Assembly: GCF_000003605.2 (NCBI RefSeq)
Contig: NW_003137823.1
Location: 382,651 to 406,589 of the forward strand
Reading direction: 5' to 3'
DNA from: Saccoglossus kowalevskii
Lineage: Eukaryota > Hemichordata > Enteropneusta > Harrimaniidae
Length of the DNA stretch: 23,939 nucleotides
Shown in pieces: positions 4,223 to 23,939 of this stretch; within the stretch, counting starts at the first letter, position 1, and every line of letters begins with the position of its first letter. The translations under genes were made by a program, and so were the position numbers. The notes under the pieces were generated by a model. It ran no database searches and was not told where the DNA came from. It saw nothing but the letters and a program-made list of their open reading frames with translations.

Positions 4223-4384
4223 TTCACACATACCTCATTGTTTTACCCTTCAAAACCAGCCACTGGATCAAAGATGATTTCATAATAACCACAGCAGTCA
4301 CTTAGTTAAGACATACTGAGCTGATTTTATTATTATTTCTCACTTAGTGGTTTACTTACTATGCGTTTCAATGTTTGTTAACAG

Positions 4385-4494
4385 TTGGAAAAGATCAACA
4401 CCAATCATGGATGGTAATATTGGACAATATCACTGTCCATATCCGTATGCCGTCAGGAGAACTCGTAAATACATCAATCAGTACAGGTCTTCAG
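4385..4494 (+). CDS. Gene 1 exon A
   Basis: The acceptor is TTTGTTAACAG and the donor is TTCAG|GTTAGT. The frame used reads MDGNIGQYHCPYPY from 4407 and then a basic tract RRTRKYINQYR. It runs through the junction into exon B as RSSGYGVTPYYPY, so the phase fits. A second frame of this exon is also open but does not continue into exon B. The same frame stays open upstream of the acceptor to a TGA at 4317, with another ATG at 4371, so an unspliced alternative start is possible. Confidence 0.6.
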
Positions 4495-7400
4495 GTTAGT
4501 ACTTACAGTATTTATTGTACATTCACTGTTCAGATTGATGTATTATATCTAACATGTGTGCAGTCCCAATTTGTGTGTGAATTCACTTGTTACACAGTCC
4601 ATATATGATAGCCCCAACCCTTGCACTTCTTGTGATTCCACCTAAATGGACTATACATGCTAATACGTACATGTACAAAAAATATCTAGTACAAGAAAAG
4701 CCATGTGCTTACTTTATAATCTCCAGCAGTGTTCAGGTTGTCATAATATTTATGTACATTACATAAAACTCTCAATGACAGAATTCTACTGCGCAGAAGA
4801 CCGTAGTGGTGTTTGTAATCTATAAAAAGGGATATTCACTTGCTTTGAAATTCAAAGAAGAAACAAATTGTTTTGTAAACTTGGTATATTCATTGAATTT
4901 TAATTTAGTGCGTTTTGCTATCAGTGAAAATAATAACCCAGTAAATAATTACAAATGTAAACCCTGTATGGTATTAATAAATTCCTGACTAACTCTGTTT
5001 ATTCTAGGTTATGGTGTGACACCATATTATCCCTATACAGTAGCAGAAAGCAGGAGAGCTGTGTCAGTCAATGCTGTGCTAGCAACTCAACAAATTGAGG
5101 AGCCACTAGACTTCAGTTTAAAACCCAAGGCCCCGGAGGATCTTCAGCCAATAGATTACAGTTGTCGTAAGACTTCTGAGGAAGAACCAGAAGATTTGTC
5201 TGTGAGGAAACAAAATGATGTATGTACCTGTTCCATTGTCGATGTGAAATCAGAGAATGGAAAGCATGCAGATCACCGGGATAGACAACCAGAAGTTCAG
5301 ACAGACATGGCGTCTGAGTCTGAGGCAGCACCAGTGTCAGATGCAGCATGGGTACCGGAGACTGCAACTAAATCAGAGACGGAAACAGAACCAGTTACAG
5401 CAACAGAACCAGTTACAGCAACAGAACCAGAGGCAACAGAGGTAGAACATCAATCCAGGCTGGAAATGGAGGAATGCAGCTCAACAAGAGGTGGCAAGAC
5501 ACCATCAATAACAGATCACTCAGATGTAGTAATTAAGATGGAGTGTGATACTAATGAACAAAACGAATTGACAACAGTTGGTGATTCTGAGAACACTATT
5601 GAAATAGTTTGTCGACAGTGTGGAGATGCAAATGTTGAACAACTATTTATTGCGATGGTGTGCAAACATATGCGGTGCTGGAAGTGCATTGTCAAGTCAC
5701 GAAATTGTACATGTCAAGGAATTGACCATGGTAAGTGAAATTATTCATACTTGTGATGACTGTTTTTTTAAGTAAACAGTAGAGCCCTAACAAATGGGAA
5801 ATGATCTCTTCTGAAATTTGTTGGCACTGTACTTTTGGACGTTTTTAAATTGTGCATCGCTGTTACTGTAAAAATGTTTGTACTGTTTTGTATAAAATTC
5901 ATTTTCACTGATGTAAAATGTTGAATGTAAAAAAACAGAAAAAAGGTATATTCGCCGGATTTTATTTTCGCTGAATCATTCCTTCAGCGAGAATAGCGAA
6001 AATGAATTTCAAGCGAAAATAAAGCATTTTACAGTACTTTTACTGTGGTTCTAGGGAGTCACAATGACTTTCACTGGGGTCCCAAGGAGTCACAGTGACT
6101 TTCACTGGAGTCCCAGTGACTTTCACTGGTGTCCTAGTGACTCGTCTTGGTTTCCCGAGAGTCACAGAGACTTCAAAAAATTAGGTCTCGCACACGCTCT
6201 CAAATTAGTGTTTCTAACAACTGAATTATTTGGTTGTGTTTCAGATTCTGGTGCTGAACTTGACACTGCAAGCTACCCAGAAGAGCCTATAGATGAGACT
6301 GCAAGGAAACCAGCAGATGGAGGTCAGACTGATGCTACATGGAGAAATGAGAAACATCACAGCAATGAAACAGTGGAAAATGATAACAGTGATACATTGC
6401 TTAATGATCAGAAGGTGATGGAAGATCCACTAAATAGCACTGCAGAACAGAAAGATGAAACCAGCGAAAAAATGAATGATTCTAAAGACAGTGGGGAAGA
6501 AAACATAAGTACTGATCAAATTCCTGATGAACAATCCACAAATGTACCAAAGAATGACGCTGCGAAAAAATCCAGAAAAAGAAAGTATGGAGGGAGAAGG
6601 AGGGGAAGAAGTAGGAAATGCAAAAAGGCTAGGGTTCATCGTGATGAGGAGTCCTCTCCTGCGTTGGAAATGACAGAACCGAGCAGTACAGAAAATGTGG
6701 ACGATTCTGAGATATGTGAACATAATGGCAATGAGGACACTACTAATGAGTTATGTGAACATAATGGCAATGAGGACACTACTAATGAGATATGTGAACA
6801 TAATGGCAATGAGGACACTACTAATGAGATATGTGAACATAATGGCAATGAGGACACTACTAATGAGATATGTGAACATAATGGCAATGAGGACACTACT
6901 AATGAGACACATAGCACGCAGGAATCAACAACAGTAATATACCAACATACTGAAGAGAATGATTCACTCTCGGTACATGTTTCTCCAATCAAGGAAAAGG
7001 GAGATGATGATATAACCACTGCCTCAATAAATACTACATCTAAAGATCTACTGACCACTCCCTCAATGGTCAAAAAAGATAGTGTGACAGATATTGTTGA
7101 ACCAATAAACAAAAATGACAATATGACCAGTGAATCAGTTGCCCCTGCTATCACAAGTGATAATGAAAATCCAGAGTTATCAGGAGTGAATAGTGTAGCC
7201 TCTGTGATGGACAATAATACTTTGGCCATTAGACCACTCACGAATACACTGCTGGTCAGTGATGATGCTACCATGACACCCCAGGTTGAGGACAATGTTG
7301 CCAGTGTACCAGTGGTCAAGGAAGATGCAACCAGTGTACAAGAGGTCAAGGAAGATGCTACCAGTGTATCAGAGGTCAACGAAGATACTACCAGTGTATC

Positions 7401-9372
7401 ACAGGTCAACGACAATGCTACCAGTGTACCAGAGGTCAATTACAATGCTACAAGTGTACCAGAGGTCAACGAAGATGCTACAAGTGTACCAGAGGTCAAT
7501 TACAATGCCACAAGTGTACTGGAGGTCAACGAAGATGCTACAAGTGTACCAGAAGTCAACGAAGATGCCACAAGTGTACTGGAGGTCAACGAAGATGCTG
7601 CAAGTGTACTGGAGGTCAACGAAGATGCTGCAAGTGTACCTGAAGTCAATGAAGATGCTACCAGTATACCAGAGGTCAGTGACGATGCTACAAGTGTACC
7701 AGTGGTCAATGAAGATGCTACAAGTGTACCAGAGGTCAACAAAGATGCTACAAGTGTACCAGAGGTCAACGAAGATGCTACAAGTGTACCATTGGTCAAC
7801 AAAAATGCTACCAGTAGACCACTGGTCAATGAAGATGCTACAATTACAACACAGCTGAATAATGATGCTACCATTACGACAAAGCTCAGTAAAGATTCAA
7901 CTATTGCACCATTGGTCGTTGACAATGTTTCTGCAGCCAAGTCTGTTGATTGGTGGGACACTGAGAAATCTGAGAAAATGGAAACCAGAAGTAAACCAGT
8001 AGTAGTCCACACAAGTCCACTTGCCATCTTAAGTGGTGATGACTTCTCTAATAGACACAAGATTGCTCTGGTTAGAGCTTTCCTGCTGGTCAACTACAAG
8101 AATGCTCCAATGTCTCAAGTCAAGGTCAAACGATCACAGCTGATACAGGAATTTGATGACTACTGTGAACATCACGGTTTTAAGGACCATGTGTACGTAG
8201 ATGGTGTGCTTATCACGTATGCATCTTTGACAACTTTCCAGGACTGTGTTTATGTTGGAAAGTCCAAGTTTTTCGTTGGCATAGTGAAAGCATCACCAGC
8301 ACCTATCTTGGGACTCTTTAAGCCTGAGGCTGTACTTGATGTGGAAGATTTTGAAACTGCTGCCATCGATTTCTTGGCCCGAAATTATGAAATTTGTCCT
8401 GATAACTGCATTCCAGCAGACTCCATTGCAGTGCATTTTATTCAAGAGTGTGATGACAGGAAGTTGAAGTTGCCGCCTTCGCTGTCTGGAAAAATGTACT
8501 TGACTCGACAGCTGGGATTGCATCAGTGTGCTGCGTCTTTCCGTAACTGCAAATACGATGAATCAATTATGACTGTTCAAGGTTTGAAACGAAAAGTAAT
8601 GCACCACGATAATAAGAAGAAAGCATCTACAAATAACAAACATCCTGCAGGGAGTGTACTTGAGCCGCCAGCTAACAGAACACTTGGTGGACGTCCAACA
8701 AAAGAAGCAGCGGAGAACAAGAAGAACAGTGCAAATCAGGAGAGCAGTGTTCCTAACGAGGTCATCACGTACGCACAAGTGTATGAATATTTATTCCGTG
8801 CATTCATATTACTCAATTACCAAATCTGCAACGACAGTAATATCAAAATAAGCTTCAAATCAATTGAGAAAGCGTTTCGACGAGAATGTGACGAAGACGG
8901 GCGTCAGAGGTTTCCACTGACAATTCTTCATAAATTACGCATAATCGGAATCGTCAAGATGAACTTCCCAGAGTGCTTCTGCGATCAAGGAAATTTCGTA
9001 AAGCTGCTATCAAAGTCTTCAAATTGCTCTCTGACTGATATGCTGGATGCTACGAAGCCTGTTGATTATTTAACACTTGCCTCTTACTTCATTAGCAAAA
9101 ACTTTCATAGTAGCCCCGAAGAATGCATGTTGGCTTCAGATATCGTCACATCATTTAAAGAACAGTGTGCTGCACACAGTCTGTTGATACCACCTGTGTT
9201 TCAGAATGATCAGATTCTACAGAACATGGTTGGTAATATATGCATAGCTCTTTTTAAGAAGTGTACATATGACAGCAAGATCGATATTGTTTGTGGTATA
9301 AGCAGAAAAGTAGCTTCTAAGCAAATAGATCTAGACTTAGAGCTGGAGCAGGAAGAGGAGGATGATGAATAA
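4407..9372 (+). CDS. RING-like, CtBP-motif, four-module nuclear protein
   Basis: Three exons join in frame: 4385-4494 (coding from ATG 4407), 5008-5730 and 6245-9372, giving about 1312 residues. The introns begin GTTAGT and GTAAGT and end TTCTAG and TTTCAG. Order along the protein: Tyr/Arg-rich N-terminus; three motifs PLDFSLK (62-68), PIDYSCRK (77-84) and PEDLSVRK (90-97) of the PxDLS CtBP-binding type; an acidic, Thr/Glu-rich linker; a RING-like cluster (231-265); a basic NLS-like stretch (about 378-404); five 13-residue repeats (427-491); 22 ten-residue repeats (612-831); four related modules (about 872-960, 969-1058, 1113-1198, 1209-1296); and an acidic tail EQEEEDDE. The modules loosely recall RFX-type winged helices. 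Likely a nuclear regulator. Exon 1 begins with an acceptor, so upstream exons may exist. Confidence 0.7.
5008..5730 (+). CDS. Gene 1 exon B: CtBP-like motifs and RING-like cluster
   Basis: The exon lies between TTCTAG|GT and CCATG|GTAAGT. It encodes the three PxD[F/Y/L]S motifs within 36 residues, then a Glu/Thr/Ala-rich acidic linker containing near-identical short repeats EPVTAT, and ends with CRQC (231-234), CKHMRCWKC (248-256) and NCTC (262-265). The spacing C-x2-C-x13-C-x-H-x2-C-x2-C-x6-C-x-C matches the first six ligands of a C3HC4 RING, but the last pair is C-x-C rather than C-x2-C, and the domain is short. It may be a degenerate RING or a different zinc knuckle. Confidence 0.75.
5864..6036. 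repeat. Small foldback repeat in intron B-C
   Basis: TACTGTAAAAATG at 5864-5876 pairs with CATTTTACAGTA at 6025-6036. Between them lie several inverted ATTTTCGC and GCGAAAAT units (about 5966-6020), including a TTCGCTGAA and TTCAGCGA pair. This pattern is typical of small non-autonomous elements (MITEs) in invertebrate introns. No target duplication was established. Confidence 0.4.
6054..6165 (+). repeat. Intronic GTGACTTTCACTGG tandem repeat
   Basis: Imperfect tandem units of about 20-30 bp built on AGTGACTTTCACTGG and GTCCCA run up to about 80 bp before the exon C acceptor. They happen to be open in the exon C frame, extending an apparent open frame upstream to 6064, but this is intron: the TTTCAG acceptor at 6239-6244 and the phase match to exon B place the exon start at 6245. 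Confidence 0.6.
6245..9372 (+). CDS. Gene 1 exon C: repeats and C-terminal modules
   Basis: One 3.1-kb terminal exon runs from the TTTCAG acceptor to TAA at 9370-9372. It opens with an acidic, Asn/Thr/Glu-rich region, followed by a Lys/Arg-rich stretch containing KSRKRKYGGRRRGR, the two minisatellite-encoded regions, and from about 8041 the conserved part. Aligned by eye, module 1 (RAFLLVNY ... FQDCVYV) matches module 3 (RAFILLNY ... FPECFCD), and module 2 (NCKYDESIMTVQGLKRKV) matches module 4 (KCTYDSKIDIVCGISRKV). So the C-terminus is a duplicated two-module unit. Confidence 0.85.
6712..6906 (+). repeat. 5 x 39-bp coding minisatellite
   Basis: Five head-to-tail units of exactly 39 bp encode ICEHNGNEDTTNE (one unit has Leu for Ile). 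The units are nearly identical at the nucleotide level, which points to recent expansion or homogenisation. Because 39 is a multiple of three, copy-number change keeps the frame. The antisense and +2 frames are also open across the repeat, which creates shadow open frames. Confidence 0.95.
7267..7926 (+). repeat. 22 x 30-bp coding minisatellite
   Basis: Twenty-two consecutive 30-bp units without an indel encode the decapeptide consensus ATSVPEVNED. Central units are close to identical; the first and the last four (for example ATITTQLNND and STIAPLVVDN) are the most diverged, the usual pattern for arrays homogenised from the middle. Variants such as VPEVNYN and VLEVNED alternate, suggesting some spread as 60-bp dimers. 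The Ser/Thr-rich acidic product should be disordered. Confidence 0.95.
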
Positions 9373-10757
9373 TGTGTAACTATAGTTACTGAACATGTAC
9401 TATTTAATTTTTACTTGAAATATTATATTACACAATTTTTCTCCATACATTAATTTATTTTTATTTATATATTTTATTTTAAAATATCCCTTTTTCAATT
9501 TTATCTATTTTTGTTTTGGCTTTTTTCGTGTATATATATATATATATATTCAACATGTACTACTGACTGCAAAGATGTGATTATGAGCCTCACGAAAATG
9601 TTTTGTTTTTGTTTTTTATATATTTAATTTATTTTTAATACGGTAACTTTTTTTTTAATCATAATTAATTGTAGGAGATGTTAATGAATTGCTGTATGTC
9701 CTTAAAATTATGTGTTATACAGCATTCTCTCACTGCCACATTTTTTTTTTACATTTTCACTTTTCTGTAAATTTCACTGATTTTAATTTTATTTTGGAAG
9801 CAAACTCTCTGAAGAAGATACTGCTTACCGTTTTCATGAAATATATTTAAATTTTGATAAATATAAATTGATTTCAAACAGTGATAATGAAAGTGAAATG
9901 GTTTATTTATTGCAAACTAAATTTTTACATAGTAAATATGTATTTTTTTTAATTAACTGTATTTTTATTTGTATTTTGTTTCTGTACTCTTATGCAGGTT
10001 AGGTACCAAATAGTGGTAACCTTGTTAATATATTATTGGAGGGAAAAAAGTTCATCGCAGAGTACATTTAAAAAAAAAATGCACTTTTTAAAGTAAAGCA
10101 AAAAAGTTTCACTTTTTTTAATAAGTTTTCACAAAAAAAGCCTTCCAGTACATACTATAGGTAGTGTGTTTTAGTGAGATTTGTTTTTATCGGAAAATGT
10201 TTTCCTTTAACATGTGAATTCACCATTTTTAACTCAATAACTACAGTATTAATATTTTATTGCTACATTGTGTACATTTTTGCCAAAACTACTTTATTGT
10301 TGTTTACCACCATTGAATTTTTTCCTGTTCTATTTTTTAAAAGTACATGTGTCTATGTATCAATACTGCCAAAATTCTTCGAACTTTACTTTCTTTCTTA
10401 AATTTTAACTAAATCTATCATGTAAAAAATATTTCTTTCTTGGTCAGATGTGATTCTTACAATGTCAGCTGTCTATCTTTGCTCTAAAATGTTCAGTAAC
10501 ATATTTGTTTTAATTAATTCCCACCGCCATTATTTGTTTTGATGACTTCTAATGCTACTATATGTATATATATGATTATAGTGTTATGTATGCTGTATTG
10601 GACTGCCATAGTTGTCTACTGTCCTGTAAACATAAATTGTTTTATAGAGTGTATAATGTGTAATTCACACTATATGTAATATTAAATATTTGCAGTCTTT
10701 ATACAGTCCATCATTTGTCTTGTCTCACTAATTGATTCTGTGTTTCGCCCCACTCAA
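9373..10757 (+). other. T-rich 3' flank, probable long 3' UTR of gene 1
   Basis: About 1.4 kb after the gene 1 stop is very rich in T runs and ATTT/TATTT words, with a TA microsatellite at about 9530-9550, and no coding potential. The composition fits a long AU-rich 3' UTR. The first clear poly(A)-signal-like hexamer seen is ATTAAA at 10681-10686. Confidence 0.45.
10681..10686 (+). terminator. Candidate poly(A) signal ATTAAA
   Basis: ATTAAA is the commonest variant of AATAAA. It is followed within about 30-45 bases by a T/G-rich run (CATTTGTCTTGTCTC), as expected of a cleavage and polyadenylation region. It lies 1.3 kb after the gene 1 stop, so its use is a guess. Confidence 0.3.
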
Positions 10758-11053
10758 GTACTTGCATTGTAGACCAGTACTGTACTGATGTATCAGGGAG
10801 TACTGCATTGTAGACCAGTACTGTACTGATGTATAATGTAGTACGTGTATTGTAGACCAGTACTGTACTGATGTATAATTGAGTACTTGCATTGTAGACC
10901 TGTACTGTACTGATGTATAATGTAGTACGTGTATTGTAGACCAGTACTGTACTGATGTATAATGGAGTACTGTATTATAGACCAGTACTGTACTGATGTA
11001 TAATGGAGTACTGCATTGTAGACCAGTACTGTACTGATGTATAATGTAGTACA
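10758..11053. repeat. 41-42-bp minisatellite, seven copies
   Basis: Seven tandem units share GTAGACCAGTACTGTACTGA followed by TGTATAAT and a variable GTAC-rich tail. Each unit carries the palindromic core AGTACTGTACT. Two unit variants (tails like TGTAGTACGTGTATT and TGGAGTACTGCATT) are interspersed. An antisense open frame runs through it only because of the periodicity. Confidence 0.95.
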
Positions 11054-11267
11054 TGTAATTCACAGTGATATCCATGCATGTGGTAGGTGTCCAAATAAGT
11101 AACGCCCTCTAGAGGCGTAAATTAGTAACACCGATTACAGCACATTGATGTTTTGTTCTTCTGTTGTCAATCAGTGAAACAGACTTCATTTTCCAACATA
11201 CTGTTCATTTGAACCACATTGTTTGTGACTGCCCGACGGTACTTTCATCTGAAATATGTATATATAT

Positions 11268-11486
11268 ATATACAGACCACTTTCCGGAAAGTAACGAAAC
11301 TGGAGTGCAGAAATATGCCTGCGTTGTCATGGCCACAAATACAAACTTGTAATTTTTATTTTTGTGACGTCGATTGGTATACGCAGAAGCACAATATCAC
11401 GTGTACAAGTTTAGGTAACAACCCAAAGCGCTATGCGCGCATGTGAAACGCCGTATTTTTGACTTCCGGGAAAGTGGTCTACATAT
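11268..11486. repeat. Inverted repeat with 25-bp arms
   Basis: The left arm at 11268-11292 contains AGACCACTTTCCGGAAAGT. The right arm at 11462-11486, read on the other strand, contains AGACCACTTTCCCGGAAGT. The arms match over about 22 of 25 positions and enclose about 170 bp. It may be a small foldback element; no target duplication was confirmed. Confidence 0.5.
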
Positions 11487-12219
11487 ATGCATGGTACATA
11501 TGGGTCGATTTTTTTTTTACTCTCACTATCCATTACTGAAATTATAAATAGAAGCTCATCGTTCAAACCATGAAATTTGTGGCAGAAAATGGCACATGTA
11601 AATTCATTAACCATTTTGAAAAATAAACATGTGAAGGGGTTTTTTGCTGTTGAAATTATTTTTCGCATTTATAACTTTCTGGAAGTGTGTAGGGGCCTGG
11701 AGGTGCTGTCGGCATATTTTGCAGGAAAGCCCCCCTTCCCTCGCCTATGTCATTTTTGAAGTCAGAGAAACACACGTCTTCGTTTTGAGAGATAATGACG
11801 AACGAATTGGTGACTCAGTTATGAAACGCGTATTAACTAAGTGCATTACAGTGGTGTATTATATAATGTGAAATGAATTGTCTTATACACTATTGTCTTG
11901 GTGAGCTGTATATTTCAGTAAAATTCATTGCATAATGTAAAGTCGACTCGTAGTTGAAACAGAATCTCTGCTAAAACATGTTTATATTTATTGTATGCAT
12001 GCTGGATTATAATAATAGTATAAACATGATTTAAATTTATTTATTAAAGTAAAAATGAGTGCACGTACTGAAACTAATGCAACCGACACGTGATACTAAA
12101 ATTGCAACATAATAATGTTATTCGATAAAGCATATCTATATATGGTAATTTTCAGTTATACGACCAAGTGGTGGAAGAATTTAATGTTGACTATATTAAC
12201 TAAACCAGCTTATCGGCCA
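11487..12219. other. Non-coding stretch between the convergent genes
   Basis: No supported gene. AT-rich with short TA runs and scattered short open frames without splice or homology support. Confidence 0.45.
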
Positions 12220-12402
12220 ATAATGGATCAATGTCACGAAGATCGCCATCATCTTGGGCAGTGTCGTCACATAAGCTGCGGACGATGCCTGCTTTGCTTG
12301 CACTGTGCACTTGATATTAATCACAGAATATGTAACCATTGACGGTGTTCGAATTGTTACATCAACATCTTCATATCCGTAGCATGCTGCCCCTGTCGAT
12401 AA
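12220..12402 (+). pseudogene. Cys-rich RING-like fragment with in-frame TGA
   Basis: Read in one frame, this segment gives MDQCHEDRHHLGQCRHISC and then GRCLLCLHC, a TGA at 12340-12342, and in the same frame RCSNC and CCPCR before TAA at 12400. The core C-x-H-x2-C-x2-C and a terminal CPCR resemble parts of a RING finger, with twelve Cys in about 60 codons. The first CxxC pair is not in place and no confirmed splice sites bound it, so it is most likely a decayed gene fragment; an AATAAA follows at 12402-12407. The family is uncertain. Confidence 0.3.
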
Positions 12403-13101
12403 ATAAATATTTACAATAAGAAGCGCCCCCAGGCGTCAAAGCGCTTATGTGACGTTAAAATGATGTGGCTGGATGAAAACAATGCGAAAACTGTGTTTGA
12501 TTGTGGAGTTCTTCATCATCTCGAATACATCTTTACAAAAACATTATTACAGATCAAGTTAACTCAACATTCTGAACGGCCTTCCTTAGTGACAACACAT
12601 TAGCACATGTGCCCTAGATGGTGCAATCGTCACATGACAAGCGTATTGCTTATAACAATACAAGGCAATAGCATTAATGTGATATTTTTATCACGTGACT
12701 AGTGGATATGTTGTACCTTGTGTACCACCCATTTCGTTCATAAAAAAATGTAATCACGATAATTCCTTGAAAGATTTTTGTTTCCATTTTAGGAACATAT
12801 GTTCAGTATGATACAATGCGCAGTCCATAACTCGTTACGATGATGAAACAAGCGGGACATTAATAGTAACATTATTCACGTGATAACACGTGTGCTGCCT
12901 TCACGCTATCCTGACTCCCATTCCTGACAAGTAATAAAATGTCTTCACTAATAGAGTTTAATTTCACTACAAATGAAATTACACCATCCAATTCAATGTT
13001 GAATACAAATTTAGCCATAGTAGTCATAAATGCAATTCATAAAACGTATACAATCACATTAAAATACCAAAAGGTGAAAAATAAATACATGTACATACAT
13101 A
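12403..13101. other. Downstream flank of AGA
   Basis: No exon seen. The stretch contains three CACGTG E-boxes (12692-12697, 12877-12882 and 12887-12892), the first two in the wider palindrome TCACGTGA. The nearest poly(A)-like signal for the minus-strand gene, ATTAAA, is at 12962-12957. Confidence 0.5.
12957..12962 (-). terminator. Candidate AGA poly(A) signal ATTAAA
   Basis: On the minus strand ATTAAA lies 140 bases after the AGA stop codon. It is the first variant poly(A) hexamer met in that direction; the next full AATAAA is beyond 12050. Placement is plausible, use unproven. Confidence 0.35.
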
Positions 13102-13324
13102 TTACTTCGTCCAATCGCTCATACACACTTTCACAACATGCCCCACCCCTACAATGTAATAGAATGCATATGACGACATTAATCCCATACCGTAGTCTCC
13201 ATCTTTACTAACTGCAATTAAAGCGCCATCAAAGTCTTCATATCGATAAGCAATCCTACTGAGGGCCTCGGCACATGCTTCAGTTGGAGTCATACCATGA
13301 CGCATATTTTCAACGGCTTGGTAA
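13102..13324 (-). CDS. AGA: AGA exon 10, C-terminus
   Basis: The exon encodes [20 protein letters not shown] and about 53 more residues ending KVCMSDWTK before TAA. YQAVE-MR-G--P--AC aligns with the human C-terminal helix. The Cys that pairs with this ACA Cys in human (in AACNKL) is replaced in YGMGLMSS, while a single Cys sits near the C-terminus. So the disulfide pattern of the tail must differ. The acceptor is TTTCAG; introns 7-9 are short (176, 109 and 129 bp). Confidence 0.93.
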
Positions 13325-16300
13325 CTGAAATACACGCCGTAATGTTTAATACCAATAATATATTTATATGAAGTCTGCGAAGTTTAGATTTAAATGTCGA
13401 AAGAGATCAGCTTGCATGATGACCACCTGATAGTACTAGTATTTACCACATACCTTGGTAGAAAACGCATCATAATATCACCATTCCCTGTTGCTGCAGC
13501 GCCACCAATGTCGTTGTCGGCATATGACCCAGCACCAACTATTGGGGAATCGCCGACTCGTCTGAAAGTCAATGGGTACATCACTACACTTACTACGCAA
13601 ACGTGCGAACTGTGTAAGATGCTTCAATTTATATTAATAACGAATTAGATATATAATTACTTAGATTTACCCAGCTATTTTAAAACTCAGCCCATTAGTA
13701 GATGTACCAACTGCAACGTTGCCATCGCTACTAATGACGACCATACCTATATATGTAATATATAATGAATGAACTACTAGCATGTCGTAAACTGTTTTGT
13801 AAATCAGAATTGTAAGATGTTAAAATGTGTTTATTCGATTATCTTGTTCCGTAAAGTAGCGTTCAAATGTAGCGAAGGACGACCCGTTCAGTTCGCATTG
13901 ATTGTTGTATAGCGCCGCCTACCGATTGTGTCGTGGTTATCTTTATCCAGTTTCGCGGAGCGTTCAGCCGACTTGGAACTACCAGGACTGTACGGACCAC
14001 ACTGCTGTGATGGATCCGGAGTGACATTCTGTGTTAATAAAAGTAACAATTAACATACCGTTTTGGGGTTTTGGTGTCACGTGATATGTCGGAGTATGTC
14101 ATCAAATCCACCATGTTCGTAGCCAGTCATGACCCCGGGGGTTCACTCTATATGCTGTTACTACCCCATGTGCGTTCCAAATTTAGCGGGAAAGCAGGGT
14201 GTTTTTCACCTTCCTGAGCGGGCCCGCGCGGGAGGCGAATAGGCTCCTTTTAAAATGCTAATGTCTGCAATAGGCCCCCAGAAATAAACTCACAGGGTTG
14301 CTGTGCCCGGCCTCCTCTCGCAACAACCACTCTCATACACCGCCCTAGGCCCCGAATTGGCGGACCCATAGCTCCGACTAGACCACAAACGTCCGCCTGA
14401 ACTTTCCCACTGGAACTTACCCGCTACTTCCAACACGAGCATACGGAGAAGGCTTATTGTAATCAAAGAAACGAAACGAAACAGGATAAAACGCATAATA
14501 AAAATTGAACTGTATTCAGTGAATATGGGTTTTATATGCTCAATATTTACAGAATATTTGCCGCAAATAATAATATTTAATACGTATATGGCTTGTTTCG
14601 CTAATTACAGATACTCACAAATCTGTAATCAGCGAAACAAGGTTCTTACACGTACAAAATTTACAACTGTCGGTGGAAACTTGACCAGTATATTTAGCTT
14701 TCAGTGGTGAATACAATAACATAAAACTTTTGCCGAAAATAACGGGATTTTAATTAGTAAATGGTTTGTTTCGCTAATTACAGATAATCGAAATCTGTAA
14801 TCAGCGAAACAAGACACGTACGTGTCAGACCCTCGTATCGCCTCGGTCTCATTTGCATCTAGCTTCTGCTTTTTTCTGGGTTTTCTACCCTGTATTCATG
14901 CCAAAGTCACTCGGAGCTGAACCTAAAATTGCGTAATGATATATGATGGAATAAGAATCCTGGCAATGTCGTGTGCATTGTGTATTAAACTATAAAATAA
15001 ATGATCATATTCACTATCATGTCAATAGTCTCATCTTTCTTCATCAAACAACGAATGACACCAACAGGAGTTGCATACATAGTAACTTGTTTGAGTTTAT
15101 CACACTCCACTTGATTGCAAAAAAAGAAAAAAAACGGCATAGAATGCTCGCAATATGGGGTAGGATGTTCTCAATATGTGTCTGAAATAGGGTGTGTTTT
15201 TTCTTCAATATGTCTGTTTTATGGGGTACTAAATTTACATTGCGTCCGCAATAGTGGGTATGGTTTGCCAATGTACTGCCAGCCCTAGGGGCCTAGTATT
15301 TTTTAGCAAGAACGCACATGGTGTAAGGTTTTAATATAGAGTGACCCCCCGGGGTCATGATACAGTCACATGATATCACATAATTCTGCGTTTCGACACA
15401 AGTCATGCAGAACATATCAAAACAATGCATGCCAATGACATTGCCTATTAGGTGAAACTAAAAACTAGTTACATAGCTTCAGCGAATTATGCAATTACAC
15501 ACACCTTTCCAATGAAGGGGGGGGGGGTAACATACGATCCTGACCTACCTCCCAGAAATTAGGTTGGCACTTATCATCTAACCAGTCTTCGTATCTTGTT
15601 CTGAAAATAAAGTTAAGTCAAAATTTCAGCTGCTGATCAAAGCATTTTTGAAAACTTCGAGTATTTCTTTTATAATTTAATAAGTCTGATATTAAATCCT
15701 AATACACAGCCAGGCTTGTGATTTATCGTGAGATGAATAAACAATTATTTAACTATTTAACAATGCACGTGCACTTCTATTTAATACTAGTAATTGTACG
15801 TATCGGTTATCAACACGCATGCGCATTACTGAAAAATGACTACGTCATCAAGCGCAAAGTATTTGTTGCACGACCAAGATAACTGTTTAACTTACAGTGA
15901 GAATATCAATACAAATGTAAAAAAAATATATGTTGAATGTCCTACCACTAAAATTAAATTAGTGCCATGTGCAATTAGTCCAATATATAGTCCGATGTTT
16001 GTGTGTTCATAAATAAATGTTGCTTACCTTGTTACATTATTCTCGAGAGACTCGTTGTCAAGACCACCAAATGCAGTCGCAAAAGATGTTGCTATAACAA
16101 TAAATACACAATTTATTTATTTATTCGATTTAAAAAAAATAATATCAGCAAGTAAAACTTCATAAATAAACGAAAATAACAATAACAATAAATATAAATT
16201 CGCCTATTTTTAAAATGGAGCCTATATCATATTTCCATAAGAGTGGCAAAAGCACCATGCATGCTGGGAAAATTTAATTTATTTACTTATTTATTGTTGT

Positions 16301-19300
16301 TGGAACAATTACGTCCCAATCAGTCCGGAAAAAATAGAAAAACTATTTTTTTGTCACGTCACTGATAATTACCAGAGTCTCCGACCAATAGAGTATGTCT
16401 GGTGTGATCCTTCACAAGTCTTGCTACAGATATAGCCCGTTTGATATTCTTTATGCCACCAACAGCGCCCACGTCATGGGTTGACCTGCCATAGATTAAC
16501 CAACATTATTAATAATCAAGGATCTAACTAGTCCAATGGGAGTGCTGGTCGCTTATGAATATTAATGATTTATATGAATATTAATGAGCTTGGTACTATA
16601 TTTCACAATTTCAATTTGTTTATTTCTTTATTTTTAATAAATAAATGTAGATATCCAAGCAATACTTCCTAGATTTGAACAAAGACGAAATTAAAACATA
16701 AATTCCATTAATAATAGTTTGAATTTAAAAATGAAACAATTCTAAACATTCTCGAAATACAAATGCTGCAGACTAAAATAATATTATTATTACAATCTCA
16801 AATAAAACACGTTTGTAGTAATCAACGTACGAATAATACTTAAACGATTATCAAAACTACGAAGTGACGTAGCTTACGGTTATACCAATAATGCCTCTTA
16901 CGCAGACATGATGCATGCAAACAAATTTACCTCTTTGTTTTGATGTGAAATAAAAAGAAAATTTTACTTAGTTTTATCGTGAGCGAATGTTTTCGATCAC
17001 TTGATCGCTTGTGGCGCATTAGTTGCCCGGCATGTATCCTTTGGCACATTAGGTCAAGAATGCCATTAACCAACGTCCCTTACGAAGAACGGTGCATTAA
17101 CCAATGAGCAGTGCAAAACATGTCTTTTTAGCTAGCATATTATTTTTACTAATCTGTAATTTCACCAATTCAAGATGCCGATAGTTTAAAATTAAGTATA
17201 TCACAGTGAGACTGATGACACTTTAGCTAAATTAAGATTATGCTAATTCATGTATTGAATCATATTCGCTAAAATAGCATTTCAACGTGTGCTACATACA
17301 GTACAGTGTGATACCTATCTACTCACATGACTAGGTTTTTATTTGTTCAAATGATATGTACATATTTAAAAGAGTTTATAGATGGAGATTCAGATAATGT
17401 ATAGGGTCTTTCCACACTAAACCATGAATTAAAAACCTTTTAGATGGATCATAACTGTCATTGTTCATTCGTCCACTTGGCCTGCGTGCACGAAGGAAAC
17501 ACAGTAAAGATGACCAAGTGAGGGTTGCGCCTGATATAACATTCATTTGTATTTAGGGGAAGTCTAGGTTGTTATAACATATATAGGTTGAAATGATTTA
17601 GAACTACTCTTCTGGGAATGTAATTAATATGTGTTTCACTTCCGGAAAGCGTCTAGACTACTACATCCTTAAAGTTGAGAGTCTCTATATTGAAAGTGGC
17701 TTGTTTTCCTAGTCCCTTTAGACTGTATTTTCAATAATAACTGTCTAGCGGTGAAACTGTGATTTATTCTACTTCCGTTTGTTTGCGAATGAGGTGGTAG
17801 CAGATTGCGAAGTTATCAAGGTATATTCTTACCCGTCCATTATCATTGCATCCAGTGTTGGCTCACCGCTAGTGTCAACTCTGTAATCACAAGTAATGTA
17901 CTGTCAATAAAATTCGCTTAGAATGTATTATTATACATCTGTCACCGTAGCGCCATACGTTAAAGCGTTCCGTAATTTTGCGGTATTGCACTGGGTGTTT
18001 TCATCCTACCATCTAATAATAACAAACAAAGATAGCTGCCCCCAGGCCCAGGGTTTGACCGGACCTCTCACAAAGAAGTTCGCTAAATCTGTTCTAAACT
18101 TTTTGGATTTCGGTATTCCCATGATGTATTCCTGGGAGGAAAAAATGTATAATAATAATGTTATTACGAGGATACTGCAAAGTATGACAGACAATACGCG
18201 GTCGCATCGACCTCCGCTGCGCGTCGGTCGATACTCCCGCTGTACAGTCTTCGTGCATACTTTAAGGTATCCTCGTTATAATCTCATAGTATATCATTCA
18301 ACAACATTATTTCACACAAAATTCGGAGCTAATACTCTTTTAAACAATTCTAAACACTTTATTTTTTGGGGTGGTATACGCGATGAGTAATCATGTCTAC
18401 GTAACACGTGATGAACAGAACGCAAGACTTATCATGCAAAAACTGGCATTCATTTCCCACTTACATTCCGCCGTATCCCACACTAAGGTGACAAAGCACA
18501 GGATCGTCTTCACATACGTTACATCCTTGTTCGACGGCGTCCACTGCTGTGTAAGAATTTCCGCTGACAACCTCCCAAGCTATGGAGGAATGAATACAAA
18601 AGATGGTGCAGCAGTCACGTTGTTACAATGATACGTATGATTAATACTACTTGTGTATTCTATAGCATACATGTCGTTGTATATTCCTGTAATATTATGT
18701 CGTTGGCCGAAGGTTGGTAATATGGGATATGTGCACAGACTCGGTTTGTCTCTCATCTTTATGTTTATAGTGGGGTTTTGGGTAAAAACCAACCCACTCA
18801 TGAACTAAACTACCTAGAATTTGTCCAGTACATCGTACTCTCGTTCAAAATAAGAAGGCCGACTTTAAATCGTTTGGGTCTCCAGCCTATTATTTGAGAA
18901 AATGGTAGATGACAGCCATTTTTATTTGCTAGTATTAAAATGGTTTGGCCATTGGTTGCTATAACTGAGATTTCATGACATATGGTACAGGGCGAACACA
19001 TAAAATTACACTAAAATAATATTTGTCCAATTTTCACAAAATATGGTCCACGGTAAACAAATGAAAAGTATCACACGATTTCTGACTAACCTTATCAACA
19101 ATAATGTGTATGCTTACATCTTAACGTTGTGTATAGTAATGACGTATTGTATTTCACAACGTAAGATAAACACGGACTGAAATGCTAAAGAAGTAGCAAG
19201 CAACATGATACAAGTTGGCCTTATATAGCCTTGGTAGGATTCACATGAGCTTGACAAAATAGCTCGTGCTATACTTGACTTTGTATCAAGATTTGACGTT

Positions 19301-22300
19301 CTGTTCGCAAGGATCGCATACAAGGCAGAAATGGCATGAATGGTTACACTTGTATTTGTTTGTCATTGAAATACGTGTAATTGTAACAATAAATGTAGAA
19401 CATGGTAAACGAGTGTTTATACATTTTCAACGATAACATTGGGAAATAGAATTTGGCGTATATTATTTTGTTCAGATATGTAAGGCTAACATTTGCAAAA
19501 TGAAAGTTCGTAGTATGCATATATACACACTTTCATTTTTTTTTTCATTAAGAGCATCAACTCTGAAAGCTCATTTCGATAAGTGACCAAGGAAATCAAG
19601 CAGAGGCGATCAGGAAGCGTTCTCGACACTGGAATCAATTCTGCAAATTGTTTTGTCGCTAACTATATCTAATTTGTTTTAAGCTGTCATTATAATGTCT
19701 TGTGTCTTGGCATTTTTCTGTCATTATTATGTCTTGACATTTTTGAACTTTCATTATTATACCTTGTGTTGCGATGTGATCATAATTTATGTGAAAGAAA
19801 GTAAAAACAACCCGTATATTGGAGGCGAGCGAATTGATGGGTCAATCTCAGAATATACCCAGTTTATCGCCATTAGATAAGCTACTATTTAGAAAATGTG
19901 ACCAGATTAAATTGTCGAAATCACCATAACTATATGTGACGAAATAAATGATACTTTAATATGGTGTTCGTGTCGTGTGATCGTTCTATAGCAGAAGCTC
20001 GTCGGACATTGTGGGACCTGTATCTATGATGTTGAGAGAATGCTCAGACACCGTCAACAAGTTGCTGTAACTAACGAAGCATCACAAGAAAGTAGTAGTT
20101 GTTCATACCCAGCAACAACTATTCGTGAAGAAATGCAGAGATTAAGAATCGGGGTTTGTATCGTTTGCAGTCCCCCCCCCCCCACACACACACACGGTCG
20201 CATGTTTGGGTGGCTTTGTCGTTCACGGAACAAACGTGGGTACCTGCAGTAAGCAGTAAAAGGGTGCTGGCTTGTTAAGAAAGCTGCAGTAAAAGGGTGC
20301 TGGCTTGTTAAGAAAGCTGCAGTAAAAGGGTGCTGACTTGTTAAGAAAGCTGCAGTAAAAGGGTGCTGACTTGATAAGAAAGCTGGCCTCAGGGAGAAGA
20401 CAATTTAAATGCCAATTGGTGTTGTTTTTATTAAAATGATTCTGAACGATGATGAATGCAATTTTTTTCTGTCATTTGTGCTAGCAATGCGTGGCTTCAT
20501 CGCAAAATATGGAATATTTCCTACTAACGAGAACTGTTATTTATTACTACTTGCTTATGTCATGAATTAGTTTTCGCGTATCTGTTGACTGACTTGTTTA
20601 GCTGATTACTAGTGAATGGCTGTGTTATATTTGTCATCATTTAGGCTCATGCGAGGTCCTGGACGGAACTTGACTCAGTGATTTGGAACTGATTACGAGA
20701 TAACCGTAGCTAGTCGGACTACTATTTCTGACAGTTGGTATTCGCAATTACTAATATAGTGAACGATTAATCAAAATATATGATGTATCCAGTACTTAGT
20801 GTGATTGGCTATGTGTGAAGGCCACGCCTTAGAGTCTTTTAACTGCTTTGTAATTGGTTAAGGTTTTGAAAGTAAATAAAGTTGTTTTAGTTGGTCTTGG
20901 AGAGAGCACCACGAGAGACGCAGTCTTGGGCCTGCCTTAAGATAGTCTTGGGAACTTTTCCCCAGGGCGCTGTGTCTTATAGAATACTCGATTGACCGAC
21001 TAAAGACGAGAGTTGATACGTATTTCGTTGTGTGTGTCTATTTGACTGTAAAGCTTAAGTGACTTTCCCGATCCCGCACCTCAATCAGACGAGATATAGA
21101 GACCAGACGATATTCTCCCTGACACGTGTTGGAGAACCTCAGAGGAGAAGAATTTCACGCTGATACTTATGTCATGAATTTGTTTTTGCGTATCTGTTGA
21201 TCGACTTAATTAGTTGATTATTAGCTGAATTGCTGTGTTATGTCTGTCATCGTTTAGGCCTATTTGAAGTTTTGGACGGAACTTGGCTCAGTGATTTGGA
21301 ACTAGTTACGAGATAACCGTAGCTATTCTGACTACTCATTCTGACAGTTGGTATCCGTAGTTATTAATGTAGTGAACGATTAATCAAAATATATGACGTA
21401 TTCAGTACTTAGTGTGATTGGCTTTATGATTGAAGGTTACGCCTTAGAGTCTTTATACTGTTTTGTAATTGGTTAAAGTTTAGAAAATGAACAAAGAGAG
21501 TTTTAGTTGGTATTGGCGACTACAGCACACAGACGCAGTCGTGGTCCAGTTTTGGAGAGTCGTGGGGCGAATCTTGACATAGTCTTGGGCTAGTCTTGGG
21601 CTAGTCTTGGGTCAGCCTTGCGATAGTCTTGGGGATTTCTTCCCCAGGGCGCTGTGTCTTATAGAGTGCTCGACTGATCTGCTAAGGCGAAAGTTGAAAC
21701 GTATTTTGTTGTGTGCGTCTTATTTGACTGTAAAGCTTAAGTGACTTCCCCGATCCCGTACCTCAAGGGGACGCGATAGAGAGACGAGACGAGATTCCCC
21801 CCTGACAAGTGTGGAGAACCCCAGAGGAGAAGAATTTCCCCCTGATACTTACAACAATTCAGGATGTTTGATTTGTAAAAGTAATGCCAAACTGACTTAT
21901 AATTCACTATTAATCATGTTGTGCCATGGACGGGGTAAATAGTAACTTATGTGAATACAATTTGTTTTAAGGTGTGTAGAATCCACAGTTAACATACTTA
22001 TATCAAAAAATAAGTGTATATTGAACGCATTAGAGAATACACAACGTAAGATTAGCAAATCCCTGTATCCGCCTTTTTTATTTTGTCGCAGAAACTTCAT
22101 AAAGTTAAGTAGTGGTTACTATTCAAATACTTTCAGGGGAAAAGAATATTGATATGCGTGTTTTGTATTATGTTTGGCATGTAGACAAGATGACACATTA
22201 CAGCGGGTAGCAAATTGGTCTGTAACATTGTTGTAATGGCGACCAGATGAGAGTTATTTTTCTGCAACAGCTGTATGTACAAAGCGTAGCTTATCTACAA

Positions 22301-22658
22301 GCGCATGCCAACTCGTACACAAGGTCAACAAGTGTGTCACCAAACGTATTCTCGATCTCTATTTGAACACTCTGTCTTAGTATTTTAATGTGTATTACAA
22401 TATTTACAGTTTGGGGTCTAAAACAATCGAACCGCGTTAATATTTAGGCAATCGAAGCAGATGCAATGTTTCAAGTGTATGACATATTACAAAATTGATA
22501 TCGTTTGCACCTGTAATGTTTTATTTGGTTTACTTACCTTTTGAAGTTGCTTCGGGATATGACCATGTTACCACGACAACCGGTAGTTTTGCATTATTAG
22601 CTGCCGATACGATGACGATTTGGCAAACTATCCCGACGAGCCACAAGTGGGCGTCCAT
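13102..22658 (-). CDS. AGA: Aspartylglucosaminidase (lysosomal Ntn-hydrolase), complete
   Basis: Ten minus-strand exons: 22658-22538, 18579-18465, 17880-17833, 16485-16373, 16091-16028, 15600-15549, 14028-13923, 13746-13671, 13561-13454, 13324-13102. They sum to 1026 nt, a 341-residue protein (human about 346). All introns are GT-AG and every junction keeps frame. The enzyme cleaves the Asn-GlcNAc bond in the last steps of lysosomal glycoprotein breakdown; it is made as a precursor that cuts itself before a Thr nucleophile. Here the site is HD|TIG at Thr205 (human Thr206). Also conserved: Trp32, Thr223 (GTSTNG), Arg233 and Asp236 (GRVGDSP), Thr256-Gly257 (AATGNGD), and MRFLPSYQAVE. An N-terminal signal peptide of about 20-23 residues fits lysosomal targeting. 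A TAA precedes the ATG in frame. Odd: the human late Cys306 position is not Cys here. Confidence 0.95.
13454..13561 (-). CDS. AGA: AGA exon 9
   Basis: The exon encodes [20 protein letters not shown] then [15 protein letters not shown], the most conserved block of the family. Arg233 and Asp236 hold the substrate's alpha groups, and Thr256-Gly257 form the oxyanion region, by analogy with human AGA. Acceptor TTTCAG, donor CCAAG|GTATGT. Confidence 0.97.
13671..13746 (-). CDS. AGA: AGA exon 8
   Basis: The exon encodes [19 protein letters not shown] and LSFKIAG. GTSTNG carries the Thr equivalent to human Thr224 of the active site. Acceptor ATATAG, donor GCTGG|GTAAAT. Confidence 0.95.
13923..14028 (-). 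CDS. AGA: AGA exon 7: autocleavage site
   Basis: The exon encodes [20 protein letters not shown], then [19 protein letters not shown] is the second half of the loop disulfide, and DNHD|TI is the precursor cleavage site, with Thr205 becoming the N-terminal nucleophile of the beta chain. The linker before it is the usual variable segment. Acceptor AACACAG, donor ATCG|GTAGGC. Confidence 0.95.
14593..14640. repeat. Hairpin copy 1 (20-bp arms)
   Basis: TTGTTTCGCTAATTACAGAT at 14593-14612 pairs with the arm at 14621-14640 with a single mismatch and an 8-base loop. Its flanks also resemble those of the second copy. Confidence 0.85.
14766..14812. repeat. Hairpin copy 2 (20-bp arms)
   Basis: The same two 20-base arms recur at 14766-14785 and 14793-14812, with the identical single mismatch but a different 7-base loop. 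Preceding blocks containing TTTGCCG and AAATAA also match copy 1, so about 175 bp including the hairpin was duplicated in direct orientation. Confidence 0.85.
15549..15600 (-). CDS. AGA: AGA exon 6
   Basis: The exon encodes [17 protein letters not shown], matching the family's DWLARNCQPNYW block with its Cys. Acceptor TTTTCAG, donor TGGGAG|GTAGGT at phase 0. Intron 6 downstream carries a TIR element. Confidence 0.93.
16028..16091 (-). CDS. AGA: AGA exon 5
   Basis: The exon encodes [20 protein letters not shown] then T and the first two bases of an Arg codon. It aligns with ATTFAQSMGFINEDLST. NVT near the end is a potential N-glycosylation site. Acceptor GTTATAG, donor ACAAG|GTAAGC. Confidence 0.9.
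16373..16485 (-). CDS. AGA: AGA exon 4
   Basis: The exon encodes [20 protein letters not shown], then [17 protein letters not shown], aligning with human [21 protein letters not shown] and HTLLVGESA. Acceptor ATGGCAG, donor TCTG|GTAATT. Confidence 0.95.
16561..16790 (-). repeat. Dispersed repeat, copy 2 (inverted)
   Basis: Read on the minus strand this repeats the blocks seen at 100-136 and 200-217: GTCTGCAGCAT, GTATTTCGAGAATGTTT and AGCTCATTAATATTCATA, in the same order. It lies in AGA intron 3. A short direct repeat of TATGAATATTAATGA (about 16553-16587) is at its edge. Confidence 0.55.
16791..17832. other. AGA intron 3, remaining part
   Basis: No exon, RNA gene or repeat structure that could be supported was seen in this intron stretch. 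Confidence 0.5.
17833..17880 (-). CDS. AGA: AGA exon 3 (48 nt)
   Basis: A very short exon encodes [16 protein letters not shown], matching the invariant [12 protein letters not shown] block of the family. Acceptor GATTACAG, donor GACGG|GTAAGA. It would be missed by any length-limited open-frame scan. Confidence 0.95.
18161..18282. mobile_element. Foldback MITE-like element in AGA intron 2
   Basis: The left arm TTATTACGAGGATACTGCAA, continuing AGTATG (18161-18186), is mirrored by the right arm at 18256-18282, which reads ATTATAACGAGGATACC, then TTAAAGTATG on the other strand. Inside is a GC-rich core with related CGGTCGCATCGACC and CGGTCGATACTCCCGC units. The arms differ by a few bases and a 1-bp indel. 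It is a short palindromic element of unknown family. Confidence 0.55.
18465..18579 (-). CDS. AGA: AGA exon 2
   Basis: The exon encodes [19 protein letters not shown], then [19 protein letters not shown]. This aligns with the AGA helix AAWRALASGG-ALDAVEKG and the Cys-containing loop before GFGG. Acceptor TCCATAG, donor GGAAT|GTAAGT. Confidence 0.93.
18580..19991. other. AGA intron 1, 3' part
   Basis: No exon or repeat supported in this stretch on either strand. It is AT-rich, with TGTCTTG-type short repeats near 19700-19770. Confidence 0.45.
19992..20171 (+). pseudogene. IAP-like linker and RING-start fragment, antisense
   Basis: After an acceptor-like TATAG, one frame stays open: it reads [20 protein letters not shown], then a Ser/Thr-rich linker, then [17 protein letters not shown]. 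The last part resembles the helix plus first CxxC ligands that open the C-terminal RING of IAP proteins (compare EEL-RLQEER-CKVC). The frame then runs into a poly-C and CA microsatellite, and no further RING ligands follow. It lies antisense in AGA intron 1. It is probably a broken gene piece; homology is by eye only. Confidence 0.35.
20172..20195. repeat. Poly-C / (AC)n microsatellite
   Basis: Twelve C followed by about six AC units, directly after the IAP-like fragment. Confidence 0.9.
20253..20384. repeat. 4 x 33-bp tandem repeat
   Basis: Four nearly identical 33-bp units start GCAGTAAAAGGGTGCTGGCT. Units 3 and 4 share a G-to-A change (CTGACT), and unit 4 has TTGATAAG for TTGTTAAG. Confidence 0.95.
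20558..21169. repeat. Large tandem repeat, copy 1 (612 bp)
   Basis: This copy begins TGTCATGAATTAGTTTTCGC and ends GAGAAGAATTTCACGCTGAT plus ACTTA. It contains an ATTGG (CCAAT) motif near 20803, a second one near 20853, and AATAAAG at about 20876, then CCCAGGGCGCTGTGTCTTAT. The promoter-like and poly(A)-like words in that order resemble a long terminal repeat, but canonical TG...CA ends, primer-binding site and target duplication were not shown. It lies in AGA intron 1. Confidence 0.75.
21170..21851. repeat. Large tandem repeat, copy 2 (682 bp)
   Basis: This copy abuts copy 1 head to tail and aligns along its full length, with perhaps 15-20% divergence. The size difference is largely explained by an extra internal run with CTAGTCTTGGG units (about 21570-21630). 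The AATAAAG of copy 1 reads AACAAAG here, so that signal is not conserved. The strand is undetermined. Confidence 0.75.
21852..22537. other. AGA intron 1, 5' part
   Basis: No exon or repeat could be supported here; ordinary AT-rich intron sequence that ends at the GTAAGT donor of exon 1. Confidence 0.5.
22538..22658 (-). CDS. AGA: AGA exon 1: signal peptide
   Basis: This exon encodes residues 1-40: [20 protein letters not shown] is a short hydrophobic signal peptide, followed by [20 protein letters not shown], where VVVVTW aligns with the mature N-terminus of AGA and Trp32 is the substrate-pocket Trp. An in-frame TAA eight codons upstream makes this ATG the first possible start. The donor is AAAAG|GTAAGT, phase 1, and intron 1 is 3958 bp. 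Confidence 0.88.
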
Positions 22659-22827
22659 GCCTCGTACAGTACGTGGTGTGATTTAAGATAACCTCGACAA
22701 ATTCGCAAGAACTACAGAGTTGAAGGGTCTACGGAAATATGTATAAAATTATTGCTGTTGCGCAATGCTTATTGGGAGGTCAATAAACGAAACATATGGG
22801 GTCAGATGAAGGAAAGAGTTATTAGTA

Positions 22828-23012
22828 GCGTTCACGCACATCTTCTTAGCACGGGCTAATGAGAGATGTAACACCTTATCCCGTGTAAGAAAACATGCGT
22901 GTACGCTTAGCATGGGCTAAGAAATGCTATGTACGGATTGAACTTGAATCGAGCCCGTTTTTAAGACCTGGTGCAAATCCTTAGCACGGACTAACGAAGT
23001 GAGCGTGAATGC
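22828..23012. repeat. MITE-like inverted repeat upstream of AGA
   Basis: The arm 22828-22859 (GCGTTCACGCACATCTTC, then TTAGCACGGGCTAA) and the reverse complement of 22981-23012 (GCATTCACGCTCACTTCG, then TTAGTCCGTGCTAA) match at about two thirds of positions, concentrated at both ends. The near-palindromic TTAGCAYGGGCTAA core recurs at about 22903 and, more loosely, at 23276 and 23327. It lies 170-350 bp upstream of the AGA start codon. Confidence 0.4.
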
Positions 23013-23392
23013 GTTGTCAAGGCTATGCTCCTGAAACACCATCGTATTCAATATTTATTTTAAAGATTTACTATTCATTTCGGTACGCCATTTCCGACAT
23101 GGCGATCAACGTGTTCTTAAGAAAAAAATAACTGACGATGTGACGCTGTGCAACTTCCTGTTATTTTGCAATCTGCACTTTATGAATTTACTTTGGTATT
23201 ATTTTATAACCGTGAGTAATCATAGTTAACATCATAACTGAAGAGTTTTGTATATCATGAGTTTAAGGCGTTCCTTAGCACGTACTAATCACTGATTCTT
23301 CCTGTGCATATGAGATTAGCTTAAATATTAGCCCGTACTTCGTATAGTATGAACACTACTACTATAAAGAAAATGAGGAACTGGGTATTTAC

Positions 23393-23438
23393 CAGCAGCA
23401 AGCACGCCACCAACGGTAATATTCCGTCGATTGCTTGG
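23393..23438 (-). CDS. Weak candidate exon of an upstream gene
   Basis: On the minus strand, CACCATAG precedes and GCTGCTG|GTAAAT follows a 46-nt segment. One frame reads PSNRRNITVGGVLAA, with an N-glycosylation motif (NIT) and a beta-strand-like ITVGGVLA of the kind seen at the start of periplasmic-binding-like receptor domains. All three frames are open, so length gives no support, and no partner exon lies in the window. It would belong to a different gene or an AGA 5' exon. Confidence 0.15.
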
Positions 23439-23939
23439 CTATGGTGACCCAAAGGGCTAATCAACAAACAGCGATTATTTTATGAGATTTTCAAAAGTGT
23501 AGGATCACGCCAAAACGAAAATATACAATCACACTATTCTCTCCAATAAAATGTAGTAAAATTAACAGTAAAGCACTCCATACTTAATCTGGCAGCAATA
23601 CAACAAGGATTTTCGAATTAATCTGAAAATGTAAACAGTGTATAGTAGTACTGTCTCTATGCACATCAAGTCCATTGATTCATAAATCATATATATATAC
23701 TCGGGGACAATTTTCAATTCTAGTATTTTAATAGTATGTAGGGAAACTGAATAATCTGATTGTTTTTTTTGTTGGACATTCCGTAATAACACGTCCAAGA
23801 TTCTTAAGAAGCTTTAGACAGATTTTAATATAATTTTAAGTACCTCTATTCAATGTTACATTTTATCTAAATTCAAACCTTTCAAATCTAATGTGGGTAA
23901 GTTTAATGTCATAATGCATGTATGTAGATCGGAGGCATT
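23439..23939. other. Right-hand flank
   Basis: AT-rich with nothing that could be supported as a gene or RNA; short antisense open frames lack any coding signature. Confidence 0.5.

Follow-up and report, generated by a model that had tools for sequence, protein, structure and literature searches.

The question raised by this stretch of the Saccoglossus kowalevskii genome (23,939 nucleotides, C2917:382651-406589, hereafter the window) is what kind of protein ends in four related modules of approximately 88 residues each, and what such an array may do. The modules, named A to D, all lie within the last exon of the one clear intron-bearing gene of this eukaryotic window, whose model, predicted from reading frame and splice borders, encodes 1312 residues in three in-phase exons with GT/AG borders (4407-4494, 5008-5730 and 6245-9372, + strand, as are all the features described below). 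The observations discussed here suggest that the modules are probably RFX-like by descent, and that the whole may be, with chances that we consider even, a chromatin protein that resides in the nucleus, has four RFX-like modules and most likely serves as a transcriptional repressor or corepressor scaffold.

Kinship of the four C-terminal modules

Module A corresponds to residues 872-960 (8047..8313), module B to residues 969-1058 (8338..8607), module C to residues 1113-1198 (8770..9027) and module D to residues 1209-1296 (9058..9321). An initial annotation of this DNA had described them as four related blocks in an A-B-A'-B' array, derived from an ancestral two-module unit; its residue numbers suit the three-exon model, and the motifs that it quoted are present, namely RAFLLVNY and RAFILLNY with FQDC and FPEC in A and C, and CKYD and CTYD with GLKRKV and GISRKV in B and D. 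The pairs of modules were scored by Smith-Waterman alignment (BLOSUM62) with 2000 shuffles each, and the bracketed counts, here and below, are the shuffles that reached the score. Modules B and D give 134 (0/2000), A and C give 58 (0/2000), B and C also 58 (0/2000), and A and D 42 (12/2000), whereas the neighbours A and B (29; 271/2000) and C and D (21; 1736/2000) are at or near chance. When the pair AB is compared with the pair CD the score is 164 (0/2000), while a control comparison of AB with residues 31-230 of the same protein gives 24 (1860/2000). The profile of A and C aligns with that of B and D in hhalign over 75 columns, with a score of 28.1 and E 1.1e-4, values obtained without a shuffle control. 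In the MAFFT alignment, F12, N16, F34, C38, F68 and C71 (numbering of B) are invariant in all four modules.

Taken together, these alignments confirm the relatedness of the four modules, among which B and D are clear repeats and A and C weaker ones. The proposed duplication of a two-module unit fits the data as well, because the resemblance is between alternating modules and is not detectable between neighbours. The case for grouping A with C is far weaker than that for B with D, since the A-C match is only 37 residues long and B-C scores equally high; the fact that C scores no better with A than with B speaks against a strong claim of an "A type".

Likeness to the RFX winged helix

The initial annotation had also guessed that the blocks might be winged helices of RFX or pox-D5 type, and for module B the predicted structure agrees with it. 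The model has the winged-helix fold in the RFX arrangement; its two best structural matches are RFX5 (8ZJR) and RFX1 (1DP7), with identities of 19-20%. AsfvPrimPol, through its D5-type C-terminal domain, forms the group that follows, with identities of 5-7%, and winged helices that bind proteins, such as those of cullins and PCI subunits, are numerous among the lower-ranked matches. Module B is, on this prediction, an RFX-like winged helix. The same fold is likely in D, because it is homologous to B, and we infer it for A, C and D alike, with the guess standing less firmly for A and C than for D. The predicted structure of the AB pair (with CD as second row) had a predicted local distance difference test score (pLDDT) of 54, too poor to judge, and was not used for claims about the fold.

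A search of the genome (572,110,611 bases in 4830 contigs) with PF02257 returned nine matches, seven of them over the cut-off and none in the window; the RFX exons over the cut-off are located on contigs C2657, C5, C1504 and C3282, by which they are named here. Each module was compared directly with seven RFX/ARID2 sequences (RFX1, RFX5, ARID2 and the four of this genome), again with 2000 shuffles. Module B scores 51 with RFX1, 63 with C5, 60 with C1504 and 56 with C3282 (0/2000 each). Profiles were compared with RFX over an aligned stretch of 30-34 columns, and each was tested with 300 column shuffles: the profile of all four modules gives 29.6 (shuffle maximum 17.0), that of B and D 28.3 (22.0), and that of A and C 22.1 (19.8), narrow and still above 300 of 300 shuffles. 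A hidden Markov model (HMM) of the seven sequences, run on 217 reading frames of the window, the four blocks and 200 shuffles, ranked module B first (E 0.0009). In the reverse search, the blocks and the reading frame that contains them came first among the matches listed; the best of the others was the RFX sequence of C5 (E 0.0007), with no further RFX sequence in the list. These results suggest that the modules are probably RFX-like by descent.

Other results of the same comparisons weigh against this reading. Module B is weak against RFX5 (34; 61/2000) and ARID2 (29; 185/2000) and fails against C2657 (17; 1974/2000). Module A is clear only against C5 (48; 1/2000), with C3282 next (32; 51/2000) and the other five at chance, and C and D match none of the seven sequences in fourteen comparisons (best D with C5, 118/2000). 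In the HMM search, module A obtained E 0.74, behind two shuffles, C and D were not among the best 19 matches listed, and a chance reading frame of the window reached E 0.037. The likeness spans approximately 32 residues in the N-terminal part of the RFX domain (helix 1, strand 1 and helix 2). With PF02257 no module of the four is listed at E <= 10, and at that threshold Pfam, PHROGs and NCBIfam match none of them to RFX, D5 or any other family of relevance (the weak rows are LRRNT, E 2.3, and four PHROGs whose function is unknown, the best at E 0.035); phmmer with the 443-residue region and hmmsearch with the module alignment gave no match among the sequences of the PDB. To these must be added the RFX hairpin RTRRLGTRGNSKYHY, which has no counterpart in the modules, the number of K, R and H residues being six in RFX1 and one to three here.

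This basic hairpin is the part of the domain that reads the X-box. RFX1 touches the major groove with strands 2 and 3 and wing W1, and the minor groove with a single side chain from helix 3 (PMC8998557; PMC2533330); the X-box contacts of RFX domains are conserved as a set (PMC2533330). The hairpins of the modules carry one to two acidic residues, and the X-box-reading basic signature RRLGTRGxSKYHY is absent from all four module sequences. The suggestion that these would be four DNA-binding-like modules finds no support here, given that the contact hairpin is not conserved and that the modules carry little net charge, between -2 and +4 (A +4, B -2, C +4, D 0). The charges do not decide between a DNA anchor and protein-only binding, and DNA binding by the modules is hypothetical. 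By the features tested, the modules fall outside the RFX transcription factor family and are not ordinary RFX domains.

Gene model and the remainder of the protein

Coding exon 1 (4407..4494) is followed by a GT donor after 4494, its phase suits exon 2, and it contains the start codon as used here. Because an acceptor-like AACAG precedes it, near 4383, further coding exons may exist upstream of 4407 and the true N-terminus may lie there. Coding exon 3 (6245..9372) begins at an AG acceptor and is open throughout; its frame comprises 1105 open codons, whereas the longest run in the six frames of 9401-23939 is 159. The G+C content of the window is 36.7%, and the Rfam and tRNA scans of it gave no match. 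Short tandem repeats of 31 and 21 bp are found in intron 2 (6036-6142), approximately 100 bases 5' of exon 3; downstream of the gene there is a 42-bp tandem repeat (10757-11052, 7.1 copies, 91% matches), and a 33-bp repeat is located at 20253-20385 (4 copies, 98% matches).

Coding exon 2 (5008..5730, AG/GT borders) encodes three CtBP-type motifs within 33 residues, PLDFS (residue 62), PIDYS (residue 77) and PEDLS (residue 90), against 0.0064 expected from shuffles of residues 1-271 with a pattern that was chosen post hoc. Motifs of the PxDLS type bind CtBP, and the tandem ALDLS pair of RAI2 drives CtBP into filaments (PMC11187106). Two points count on the other side: only PEDLS has the strict PxDLS form, the other two being loose, and PIDYSCRK (approximately 5145-5168) may serve another partner, because Pfam also matches it, below the cut-off, to the APC 15-residue motif (15.3 bits vs 19.4; E 0.025). 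The same exon contains a degenerate RING-like Cys/His cluster (residues 231-265, 5610-5714), with the spacing C-x2-C-x13-C-x-H-x2-C-x2-C-x6-C-x-C, whose last pair is non-standard and which obtains 9.5 bits with zf-RING_5, the cut-off being 27.9. Exon 2 also has PHROG matches (best E 0.0016), which were discarded, as they fall on an acidic low-complexity part.

Exon 3 contains a basic stretch, two tandem-repeat arrays, the four modules and an acidic tail, and residues 271-860 form an acidic middle with a net charge of -85. The first array is a 13-residue repeat of the CEHNGNEDTTNEI type (6708..6907; 5.1 copies, 98% matches) and the second a 10-residue repeat of the EDATSVPEVN type (7303..7843; 18 copies), both in frame; in the latter, 23 of the 61 changes from the consensus are silent, compared with an expected 22%. 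These predicted features of the remainder of the protein fit a nuclear role.

Within its own genome, the C-terminal region matches only itself at E <= 1 (one candidate scored), and so does exon 2 (12 candidates scored), searches that distant paralogues would escape. No Pfam family, and hence no primase or helicase, is found in the 1102-residue reading frame at E <= 1, and when viral contigs were scanned once with the 443-residue region, one stretch fitted a pattern and none was confirmed. Among the open-access PMC papers listed, the titles and abstract beginnings pointed to no protein of such a layout.

Proposed role, rival explanations and known systems

In the reading that we prefer, at the even chances given above, the N-terminal part would bring in the corepressor CtBP by means of the three neighbouring PxDLS-type motifs, the long disordered, acidic and repeat-rich middle would serve as a flexible spacer, and the basic stretch would direct the protein to the nucleus. 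The four RFX-like winged-helix modules, arisen from the two-module duplication, would anchor it to chromatin, either by multivalent, weakly specific contact with DNA or by contact with a partner. Nuclear location, CtBP binding, chromatin anchoring and repression are properties that we infer. A more tentative extension, less likely than not, is that the gene may represent an animal family of corepressor scaffolds, in which an RFX winged helix was duplicated to four and lost the X-box hairpin, and in which CtBP-recruiting motifs and a RING-like finger were joined to it.

The strongest competitor, possible and yet somewhat doubtful, is that RFX-derived winged helices have lost DNA binding altogether and form an array for protein-protein interaction, as in cullins and other complexes. 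The loss of the contact hairpin, the near-neutral charge of the modules and the presence of cullins and PCI subunits among the lower structural matches are what such an array would lead one to expect; on the other hand, the best structural matches are the DNA-binding RFX domains, and winged helices are able to bind DNA through other surfaces. That the modules come from large DNA viruses or mobile elements, as descendants of a D5-type winged helix and not of cellular RFX genes, is improbable: the identity is 5-7%, against 19-20% for RFX, the direct sequence matches are RFX sequences of the same genome (the D5 domains were compared by structure alone), and neither a confirmed viral relative, in the single scan mentioned, nor a primase or helicase family, in the 1102-residue frame, accompanies the modules. 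Least probable of all is a fast-evolving, lineage-restricted gene or a degrading copy, with an RFX likeness due to convergence and no conserved regulatory role, which would suit the self-matches in the genome, the lack of a relevant family match and the near-identical tandem repeats, and against which stand the 1105 open codons (vs 159), the core residues kept in four modules, the silent changes in the 10-residue repeat and a match of B to RFX above all shuffles.

If the corepressor reading is true, the RFX fold would here be reused as a multivalent scaffold, in four diverged RFX-like modules that are combined with CtBP-type motifs, and this would be a concrete protein in which to test the role of a winged helix after the loss of its DNA-reading hairpin.

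As regards known systems, the RFX domains of RFX1 and RFX5 and the predicted module B have the element order helix-strand-helix-helix-strand-strand in common. Module B and the RFX sequence of C5 are alike from helix 1 to helix 2 (LxxNYE...CIP...H....C), and the hairpin of B ends in GLKRK where that of RFX1 ends in GLRIK. RFX differs in having the basic major-groove hairpin and a Pfam match, and to our knowledge RFX proteins have a single RFX domain each, compared with four modules here. For RFX1-3, B, C and D (dimerisation) regions are described as well; the Pfam scan of the 1102-residue frame lists no family at E <= 1. The modules are uninterrupted in a single exon, whereas three RFX domains of the same genome (L002, L003 and L004 with L006, L005 and L007) are split, stopping after FGK and resuming at a distance of 3-9 kb; in L002 and L003 the frame closes shortly after FGK, and in the stretch of L004 that is shown it stays open. 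ARID2 has an ARID domain, without counterpart here in the Pfam scans, and was rejected as the closest relative by sequence, since no module scores above chance with it (best B, 185/2000). It is alike in being a chromatin protein, a subunit of PBAF, with a diverged RFX-like domain within it (PMC9741621). The AsfvPrimPol-type primase-helicase, at 5-7% identity, differs in its primase/helicase core, which is absent here from the Pfam scan of the 1102-residue frame. Finally, RAI2 and other tandem PxDLS ligands of CtBP are alike in that more than one CtBP-type motif lies within a disordered region; RAI2 is described as having no folded domain structure (PMC11187106), whereas in the protein discussed here one module at least is predicted to be folded.
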